From: Mansonella perstans
Taxonomy: Eukaryota > Nematoda > Chromadorea > Rhabditida > Onchocercidae
Direction: 5' to 3'
Assembly (NCBI GenBank): GCA_037074765.1
Contig: JBAMDO010000031.1
Span: forward strand, 248,001-312,000
Length of the DNA: 64,000 nt
Below are positions 9,401-12,400 of this stretch, one piece after another (within the stretch, counting starts at the first letter, position 1; every line of letters begins with the position of its first letter). The notes beneath the pieces were generated by a model. The model saw only the letters and a list, made by a program, of their open reading frames with translations, made no database searches and was not told the origin of the DNA. A program made the position numbers and the translations under genes.

Positions 9401-12400
9401 CTGTTATTTCTGATTTATACACCACTGTTATATCGACATATTTGAAAGAAAAACCTCCGCAGATTGCGAAAGCTCTGGCGGGATTGCGGGAACAATCTTT
9501 AAAATGTAATAAACAAAGCGTTTTTAATACGTTGGCGAGAGGCTTTTTTAAGAAAACTCTTAAAATGATTTAGAAAAACTGATTATCGTAGTTACCACTG
9601 AGATGTATGACGGTTTCTTAAGAAATCTCTCTATTTCTTCTGTTTGCATTGATAGAAAAGAGTTGTCTTGCTTCATTGTTTTGTTATTTTCAAATTCATT
9701 ATTTTATGCAAATTAGAAACTGTTTGAATCTTTTCGTTTCATTTTCATGATATTTCATTCAAGCTGAGATTTCTGGATTCTTCATATATTCATTTTTTTT
9801 CAGTACATGATGGAATGAAATTGGAAAAAAAGTGGATTGATTTTGTATCTTTGCTTTCTCCCGGTGAAAATCTGTTCAATGTAGCATTATCAACTTATGA
9901 TTTAAGTTTAGCACTTGCCGTTGCAGAAAATTCTCAGATGGTAAAGTTTTATATCTAAATCTTGTTATCAAATAAAGCTCTTGTTGCAGATTATAGCGTT
10001 AATAATTACGTTATTTTATTTAAAGTTATTTTTTAATTCGTTGTTACTATGCACCGGTACGTGGAATATATGCCATCACATGTTAGTTCTATCCAGTGTT
10101 TAATTCTATATGTTGACTTTATTCATGAAGTCTATATATATATATATATATATATATACTTTTTATTTTTATTCATAATATTTCATTTTTCAGGATCCAA
10201 AGGAATATTTACCATTGCTAGCAGATTTTCAAGCTTTTTCTCCTACTGCATATCAAAAATCTAAAATCGACATATATTTGGGGATGTTCAAGAGAGCCAT
10301 CCGAAATCTGTCAGAGTTGGACGATCGTTGGAATGAAGCAGTGGAAATTATAAAATGCCAAAATTTATATACAGAAGCTCTGGTAGTGTATCGCGGAAAG
10401 AAAACCTATCTGGCATGTATTCTCCAATTCTATTTTTTTTCTTGTCAGTAGTCGGGATGTCAGCGAAAAGACAGTCGGATAGTTTGCTGAAAGTTCGTAA
10501 CTGTATTTTGGAATAACTTGCTGTCTGCTTTCCTGTCATTTTTAAACTCGAGTAAATTCATAAATCAATTTTGATGCGACCTGAACTATTATTTCGATTT
10601 ATAATTTTGGCTCTTTTACTATAATGATCATCTAATGAGAGATAGCCTAGCTATTTCATGATAATATCATTAATTAATAAGAGAGATATAGTAATAATTA
10701 AATGGTTATTTAGAAAGCGTGCGAGCTATGCGCTAGTAACTTGATGAATAAGCGACGTTTTGAAGAAGCTGCATTATTATTTAAACGCGCAAATAATACA
10801 GCTCAAGCACTGCAATGTTATCAGAGTGCTCAAAACTGGAAAGGAATTATTGAGTGTGGACAAATCATGGATATGGAGAAGAAAGCATTAAACGATTTAC
10901 TACAAAAGATGATTCCACATTTCGAGAGCAAAGGAAAATTTACAGATATTGCTGAAATATTATCATACATTGATGAAAAGGTACGGAAAAACGATTTTTT
11001 AGCATTTTTGCATAATGATCATTATTCTTGTAAAAATTATAATCTGGCAAAGAATAATATAGTTTGCGATGTTTTGAAATTTCGACAAGATTAGAAATGT
11101 AGAAGGAAGAAGGAAATATCATTTTAAAAGTAAGGCTGGAAGTGTCGTGAAAGTTGTGGTGAGTGACGTTGAGAGAACGGGTTGAATTGAATGTTGTACG
11201 GTCTCAATCTCAAACTTGGGTAATTAAACCTTTATTAAAATTATTAACGAACGCGAACATAATTAAAAGCATTAACAAACGCGAACATAGCAAACGCGAA
11301 CGTAATTATTTAATGTTGAAAGAATTGGATACGTGAATGAAGAGACAGATGAGTGCCGTTATGAAGGAACAGTTAAGATGGAAATTTGACAGTCTATATA
11401 TAGTAGTAGAAGGGGGGTCAATGACGTGATAGGACGATCATAAGGTCAAATGATAAAGGATGGAATAATGATGTGATGGAGAGATCATAAGATCCTTATT
11501 ACTTATCTACGGCTTGAATTATTGGATGAAAGATTAGACTACAACAAAAAATAGGGAATTAATCTTAACATCATAAAATTAATTAGATTTATTGACCTAT
11601 TGGAATTTTCGCTTTATGGATTTCGCGACAGGAAGTTCTTTTTTCAGTCCAATAGGGTGCAGATAGTGGAATATTACTGTAAGGCGGACGCTTGGGATTT
11701 TGCCATGAACCATGCTTTCGGAAATGAAGGTAAATTTTTTTCAACATTCCAGAAAAACGATTACTGTATGTGATATTTGGCTTTTATCTGTCTCTTCGTC
11801 TTTCTCTGTATGTATATAGATATAGGCAGGGTAATATGTTTAATGATAACTTTGTGATTCTTTTGCAGAGTTGACAAAAATGGTCGCTAAAGCGGCTTCT
11901 GTTCGTTGCAAACAAATTTTAGAAAGTGTAGAAAATTGGCAGAACTTAATGGAACAATATTGCAGTCGTTTGGAAATAGTACGACAGAATAAAAAGAATT
12001 CGCTGAAAGTAGCTATGGAGCGATTTGAAGGTCAAGATCTGTCAATGTCAGAAGTAGGTCTTTTTGTTTCTTTCAAATTTATTTTGAGAACAATATTGTT
12101 TGATAGAATAGCTCATATTACAGCTGAAATCATTTCGATTTACAGTACTACTATTCATCTTTAACTTTTTTAGTGTATTTTTTAATGAAGTTTAATGTTA
12201 TAATTTAAAAATTCTAGAAAACTCAGATAGTAAATTTTTAAATATAAAATTTTATTTAGGTTTTTAGCGAAGCATCCAGTGCAATGAGTGGTATATCAAA
12301 GATTTCAGCAGCTTCTACAGCTTCAGCTCGTCATCGAAAACATATTGAAAAGTGAGCGATTCTGTTGTTTGAAGCTGAGTAAGAGTTCATACTTCGCGTA

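Follow-up and report, generated by a model that had tools for sequence, protein, structure and literature searches.

SL1 spliced leader as the putative R region of BEL/Pao LTR retrotransposons in Mansonella perstans

The Ascaris element Tas may have been linked with the spliced leader (SL) sequence. In Brugia malayi, SL1 has already been described beside Pao elements: in the passages compared, 120 SL1 22-mers stand outside the SL RNA arrays, and for 60 a PAO element lies no more than 1 kb away; SL1 occasionally flanks PAO elements on the same strand, and integration of trans-spliced RNAs was inferred (Foster et al. 2020, PMC7181701). The M. perstans case described here is similar in that SL1 lies outside the SL RNA arrays and beside Pao elements; the same passages of the B. 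malayi account (PMC7181701) contain no SL1 acting as R within the LTR, no AATAAA-SL1 arrangement, no renewal, no U3/U5 exchange and no host mRNA capture. Cer1 of Caenorhabditis elegans likewise provides an LTR-element RNA bearing SL1, as its 2.4 kb RNA occurs with and without the leader; in the part of the source consulted the 8-kb full-length RNA is reported not to be trans-spliced at that SL1 site, and SL1 would therefore not be R in Cer1, which differs from the present case (PMC3315495). In dinoflagellates, the portion consulted describes DinoSL-tagged retrogenes in which the leader is fixed in DNA and relics are stacked, older ones being more decayed (PMC6050394). The DNA-fixed leader and stacked relics are shared with the present LTRs, but the DinoSL carriers are retrogenes, not LTRs, and the leader is a passenger tag there. 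In the literature searched, mostly papers available without subscription, no prior report was found of SL1 acting as R, of SL1 renewal or of host mRNA capture through SL1.

We analysed 64,000 nucleotides of M. perstans DNA (contig JBAMDO010000031.1, positions 248,001–312,000), hereafter the window. Its minus strand carries a perfect SL1 22-mer at 11209–11230 (0 mismatches), proposed as an R region from this exact match and a comparison of copies, and an AATAAA poly(A) signal that abuts it (11231–11236, minus strand); both had been pointed out in a first-pass annotation and were confirmed in the sequence. The match is beyond chance, with 0 of 100 shuffled controls giving any match, and no second SL1 was found in the window even when up to three mismatches were allowed. 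No GT donor stands directly 3′ of the leader, and an Rfam search of the window returned no family at gathering score and no SL RNA fold, in agreement with the earlier view that the 22-mer is not an SL RNA gene.

The block around the leader is a solo LTR of a BEL/Pao retrotransposon (11143–11630, minus strand, 488 bp, TGTCGCG...CACGACA), as judged from its boundaries, its flanks and the ends that it shares with the LTRs of three related elements (L041, L052 and L058). The earlier description of an LTR-like block at 11143–11546 was right as to the LTR, but the true extent is longer. Comparison of the flanks identified target-site duplications (TSDs), CTTCC on the minus strand, at 11631–11635 on the U3 side, seen again in L009 and L053 (same place), and at 11138–11142 on the U5 side. 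U3 comprises 400 nt (11231–11630), with SL1 starting at LTR position 401, and U5, delimited by its sequence and by copy comparison, comprises 66 nt (11143–11208) and begins ATTGAG, both on the minus strand. A TATA-like motif on the same strand (11397–11402), 172 nt 5′ of SL1, is a weak promoter candidate because the distance of such motifs to SL1 varies among copies (45–160 nt in the others); the stretch from this motif to SL1 would be the outron. The window copy has no coding part, its Pao assignment coming via related elements, and was presumably left by LTR–LTR recombination. On one side of the LTR, an open frame on the plus strand (10741–11094), opposite to the LTR strand, resembles the ELP1 TPR domain over its first 78 residues (E 3.1e-07, above the curated cut-off); compared by sequence with solved chains, this frame gave no match. 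The LTR therefore likely lies inside an intron of an ELP1-like gene, as first annotated, but this placement is not proved because the open frame on the far side (11871–12164) gave no useful match.

A genome search with the originally annotated block, in which 40 of 157 candidates were scored, revealed at least 66 related pieces, the window's own included, and 30 loci were cut out, 29 besides the window's own. For a set of 25 LTRs, two loci were removed as duplicates (L017, L029) and two were excluded (L015, with the last SL1 letter changed, and L020, which ends before SL1). All 25 distinct loci aligning through the SL1 end have SL1 there, intact or with few changes. In the 75.7-Mb genome, SL1 occurs as an exact copy 266 times, and the reversed pattern not at all. 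An SL RNA intron start follows SL1 in 68 copies (67 on contig C518, one on C191), and AATAAA stands 0–2 nt upstream in 149, with no such case in reversed controls; by subtraction 49 remain, and the part of these that was seen consists mostly of later SL1 units within U5 or belongs to LTRs whose AATAAA is altered. That the 68 and the 149 do not overlap follows from this subtraction and from one SL RNA gene that was read, and places were considered for 100 sites each out of 266, 149, 183 and 482. The C518 copies (7301–28030, spacing mostly about 307 bp) are probable SL RNA genes, as is a lone copy at C191:69446; with the Rfam SL1 model, all 50 scored candidates (out of 29150) matched, all on C518. 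A scan of viral contigs for AATAAA-SL1 gave 0 matches.

Several Pao elements have SL1 in both LTRs, with pairs in L041, L052, L054 and L058. These four carry the domains known from BEL/Pao (Belpaoviridae), namely DUF1759, DUF1758, Peptidase_A17, Integrase_H2C2, rve (here below its cut-off) and DUF5641; the 5-bp TSD and the LTR ends TG...CA are also shared, and the difference is that R here is apparently a host leader, not an element-encoded repeat. The L058 LTR pair is 97.8% identical over 494 aligned columns and flanked by the TSD ATTAC, and L041 has the TSD AGCGC; no matching TSD was found for the L052 pair, whose outer LTRs are only 90.7% alike. A second SL1-bearing LTR-like piece is nested in L052 at about 3080, between the gag and protease parts. 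Directly after the LTR we found TGGTGCCCGAGG or TGGTGCAGCGAGG, with a primer-site-like TGGTGC 3′ of the LTR. The ten best protein relatives, under filarial worm names, with one entry under a Wolbachia of Mansonella, show 47–64% identity over 70–92% of the query. A Pao Gag fragment, P0002, is filed under the Wolbachia endosymbiont of Mansonella perstans, the assembly of which probably includes worm DNA here. In L046, L051 and L056, the letters past SL1 found no assignment. Two repeat arrays were also observed: a tandem array repeating every 53 bp or so in L056 (3698–4318), downstream of a U3-SL1 that has no normal U5 after SL1, and a long low-complexity array in L054 (about 500–2600), beside the C35 element, that translates as repeats such as DNEEEKDDNEEE.

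Proximity was examined for 24 of 106 Peptidase_A17 matches (those that scored highest among contigs as far as C429) against 100 of the 149 AATAAA-SL1 places. A same-strand AATAAA-SL1 lies within 8 kb of 16 of the 24, and on the opposite strand the count is 0 of 24. Seven matches are flanked on both sides (C346:34502, C114, C31, C131, C35, C384 and C40), and the match at C309:16346 has AATAAA-SL1 at 6.5 and 7.3 kb, one each side. Among these 100 places, an exact AATAAA-SL1 within 8 kb is absent for the other 8 matches; an altered SL1 lies close to two of these (C45, which is L015, and C36, with the first 16 letters), and six, including those on C61 and C333, have not even a changed SL1 among the places listed. 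The two longest open Pao frames, at C61:14717 (2452 aa) and C333:28881 (2413 aa), have no exact AATAAA-SL1 within 8 kb among the same places, and some Pao elements, such as these two, may work without SL1, using another R region.

SL1 also marks the point at which the two parts of the LTR come together. In 16 of the 66 related pieces, homology to the window LTR ends at query positions 338–344, which is 0–6 letters past the SL1 3′ end. Across 15 copies, hand-chosen out of 60, U3 and U5 families assort independently with SL1 as the exchange point: C40 and C35 are 93% alike in U5 and 58% in U3, and C116 and C111 are 79% alike in U3 and 46% in U5, where a control with shuffled U5 90-mers, which covers U5 alone and not U3, had a mean of 50 and a maximum of 59. 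Sequence context was gathered for 79 sites, made up of 60 of the 75 in one set plus 19 more, a mix of sites in listing order, loci found through homology of their LTRs, and six stretches chosen for the TTTGAG hexamer or as partner LTRs. A purine directly follows SL1 in 71 of the 79, as expected past a 3′ splice site.

Among these 79 sites, only two captures of host mRNA were found. In one LTR of L054 (contig C35), U3-AATAAA-SL1 is followed, in place of U5, by GTGCAAAACAATG plus the beginning of ribosomal protein L6 (RPL6), and then by pol; eL6 chains support the RPL6 identity (best E 1.3e-09). The real RPL6 gene on C539 reads TTTTTGTAG and then, past the splice site, GTGCAAAACAATG, and it has an intron where the chimera fuses RPL6 exon 1 to 18 letters of exon 2. 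The whole chimera of 3966 bp bears a clean TSD, ACCAC, and therefore most likely formed before integration. On C535, U3-SL1 is joined to an exon similar to NAP1 exactly at the TTTCAG/AGAAAGG acceptor of the real gene, and this exon runs on directly into 25 letters of the next one, the intron that the real gene keeps having been removed; the piece matches a solved NAP weakly (E 0.01) and is 99% identical to the gene on C181. The C535 copy is a palindrome, in which U3-SL1 and the NAP1 piece are followed by inverted PBS-U5-SL1-U3, so that U3 is at both ends; it is probably flanked by the TSD TAAGC, one LTR end being changed. An intron-less NAP1-like copy at C529:225600-225900 (L069) is probably a processed pseudogene and suggests that host mRNAs were reverse-transcribed in this lineage; further NAP1-like copies are on C190, C521 and C218, the intron-less state having been seen in sequence for C529 alone. 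Judged by the C529 copy, the NAP1-like exon is normally cis-spliced, and SL1 was therefore added at an internal acceptor in C535. In both captures the joint lies exactly at the host 3′ splice site and the cis-introns are gone. Together with the U3/U5 exchange, these two joints support the idea that strand transfer takes place at SL1.

SL1 itself is better kept than its surroundings. In the 25 LTRs found by homology, changes affect 17 of 555 SL1 sites, compared with 207 of 1566 in the stretch of up to 80 nt preceding SL1, U3 being more diverged than SL1 in 23 of the 25. Further SL1-like units occur within 135 nt 3′ of the U3-adjacent SL1 at 28 of the 79 sites, against 1 match in 1580 in a shuffled-context control. 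At these 28 loci the U3-adjacent unit is perfect in 26, and 8 of the 33 later units are perfect. The best of the later ones falls short of the U3-adjacent unit in 20 loci, surpasses it in two (C65 and C90) and equals it in six. The copies are non-independent events, four of the 28 loci belonging to one family, and the site rule was widened post hoc to admit C65 (GGTAAG before SL1), which counts against the renewal reading.

From the comparison of DNA copies, we consider it highly probable that SL1 serves these BEL/Pao LTRs as their R region, added by trans-splicing, kept before poly(A) and used in first-strand transfer. The transcript would start at a U3 promoter, for which the TATA-like motif is a weak indication. 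The host would then trans-splice SL1 at the start of U5, giving an RNA that begins SL1-U5, in line with the joints to trans-spliced host mRNAs, and the U3-derived outron including AATAAA would be removed. As AATAAA lies within the outron in the 5′ LTR, it would be spliced away there and used solely in the 3′ LTR, where an RNA end of AATAAA-SL1-poly(A) would agree with the constant AATAAA-SL1 order. Strong-stop cDNA of SL1-U5 would pair with the 3′ SL1 and copy U3, a step supported by the U3/U5 reassortment and by the joints of U3 to host mRNAs at SL1. The host SL RNA would re-supply the U3-adjacent SL1, whole or in part, in each cycle, as the mostly perfect first SL1 and the decayed later relics suggest. 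It is likely that these elements represent a class of LTR retrotransposon with a host-supplied R, in which SL RNA renews R each cycle and enables end exchange and the pickup of spliced host mRNAs via ordinary first-strand transfer; under renewal, both would arise because every SL1-bearing host mRNA offers a compatible 5′ end. At this locus, as in many related LTRs, SL1 and the R region seem to be one and the same, and SL1 is probably renewed in each cycle. This seems to go beyond the second guess of the first-pass annotation, that the block is an LTR whose transcript was trans-spliced and the leader copied into R, which is itself well supported by the copy comparison.

The conservation of SL1 could also come from selection. 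An unlikely alternative account has SL1 captured once, long ago, when a trans-spliced Pao RNA was reverse-transcribed, and now inherited as an ordinary motif of the LTR (R or poly(A) region) under selection, with no host renewal. In the related LTRs seen, SL1 does adjoin U3 at one and the same position, and selection would also account for an SL1 less diverged than its flank and a first SL1 better kept than later ones; yet a single capture alone leaves unexplained the U3-SL1 joints to RPL6 and NAP1-like mRNAs at host 3′ splice sites and the U3/U5 reassortment at SL1, unless SL1 doubles as the site of strand transfer. The first guess of the earlier annotation, that a trans-spliced host mRNA was simply retrocopied into this site, has in its favour that the leader is encoded in DNA here, as in the part consulted on dinoflagellate retrogenes (PMC6050394). 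This account is very improbable and was rejected for the window copy, because the leader is followed not by host mRNA but by an LTR U5 that ends in CACGACA with a target duplication and is common to other LTR copies. Most improbable of all is a degenerate SL RNA gene at 11209–11230: the 22 letters alone would fit, but the missing GT donor and the lack of an Rfam match in the window led to its rejection, and the SL RNA genes form the array on C518 with about 307-bp spacing, one copy of which (L061) was read and has GT after the leader and a likely Sm site.

A separate choice concerns short additions beside SL1. Exact SL1-TTTGAG copies number eight, at eight places, and the six with context fall in two U5 families; the aligned LTRs of L041 are identical save for a TTTGAG hexamer, L065 reads SL1-TTTGAG-TCTGAG-ATTGAG, an order that would fit hexamers being gained next to SL1 and growing older with distance from it, and L072 and L074 have stacked SL1 of 22+21+21 nt. 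It is suggestive that TTTGAG is what would remain after splicing to CCCAAG within SL1, and that, if the AG that AATAAA makes with the first G of SL1 were the acceptor, 21 nt would be left. For these features alone, polymerase slippage or DNA tandem duplication instead of alternative trans-splicing is a real but lesser possibility. The hexamers and 21-nt units are direct repeats of adjoining letters, the two LTRs of L041 differ solely by the hexamer, and the commoner spaced SL1 repeats start after no AG; against this stand the eight places and two U5 families, and the fact that the 6- and 21-nt extras both start just past an AG (CCCAAG^TTTGAG in SL1 and, where U3 meets it, TAAAG^GTTTAATT), which for these two lengths is no more than suggestive. 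Spacers separate the units in 26 of the 28 loci with several SL1. Later units (for example on C4, C26 and C73) stand behind spacers of 27–51 nt that end in CAAC where the unit is exact, and CAAC, not AG, precedes the later exact unit in all seven spaced loci looked at. SL1 acting as R, as stated above, leaves these spaced repeats unexplained; as a conjecture, they could have grown by misaligned SL1–SL1 transfer.

If SL1 is indeed the R region of these elements, trans-splicing would be a working part of element replication, beyond its role in RNA processing. The host would re-make the repeat that the element needs, and the poly(A) signal would be hidden in the spliced-off outron. Such an arrangement would provide a built-in route for the swapping of element ends and the capture of host genes, and would leave a DNA record of trans-spliced host mRNAs and of the acceptors used.
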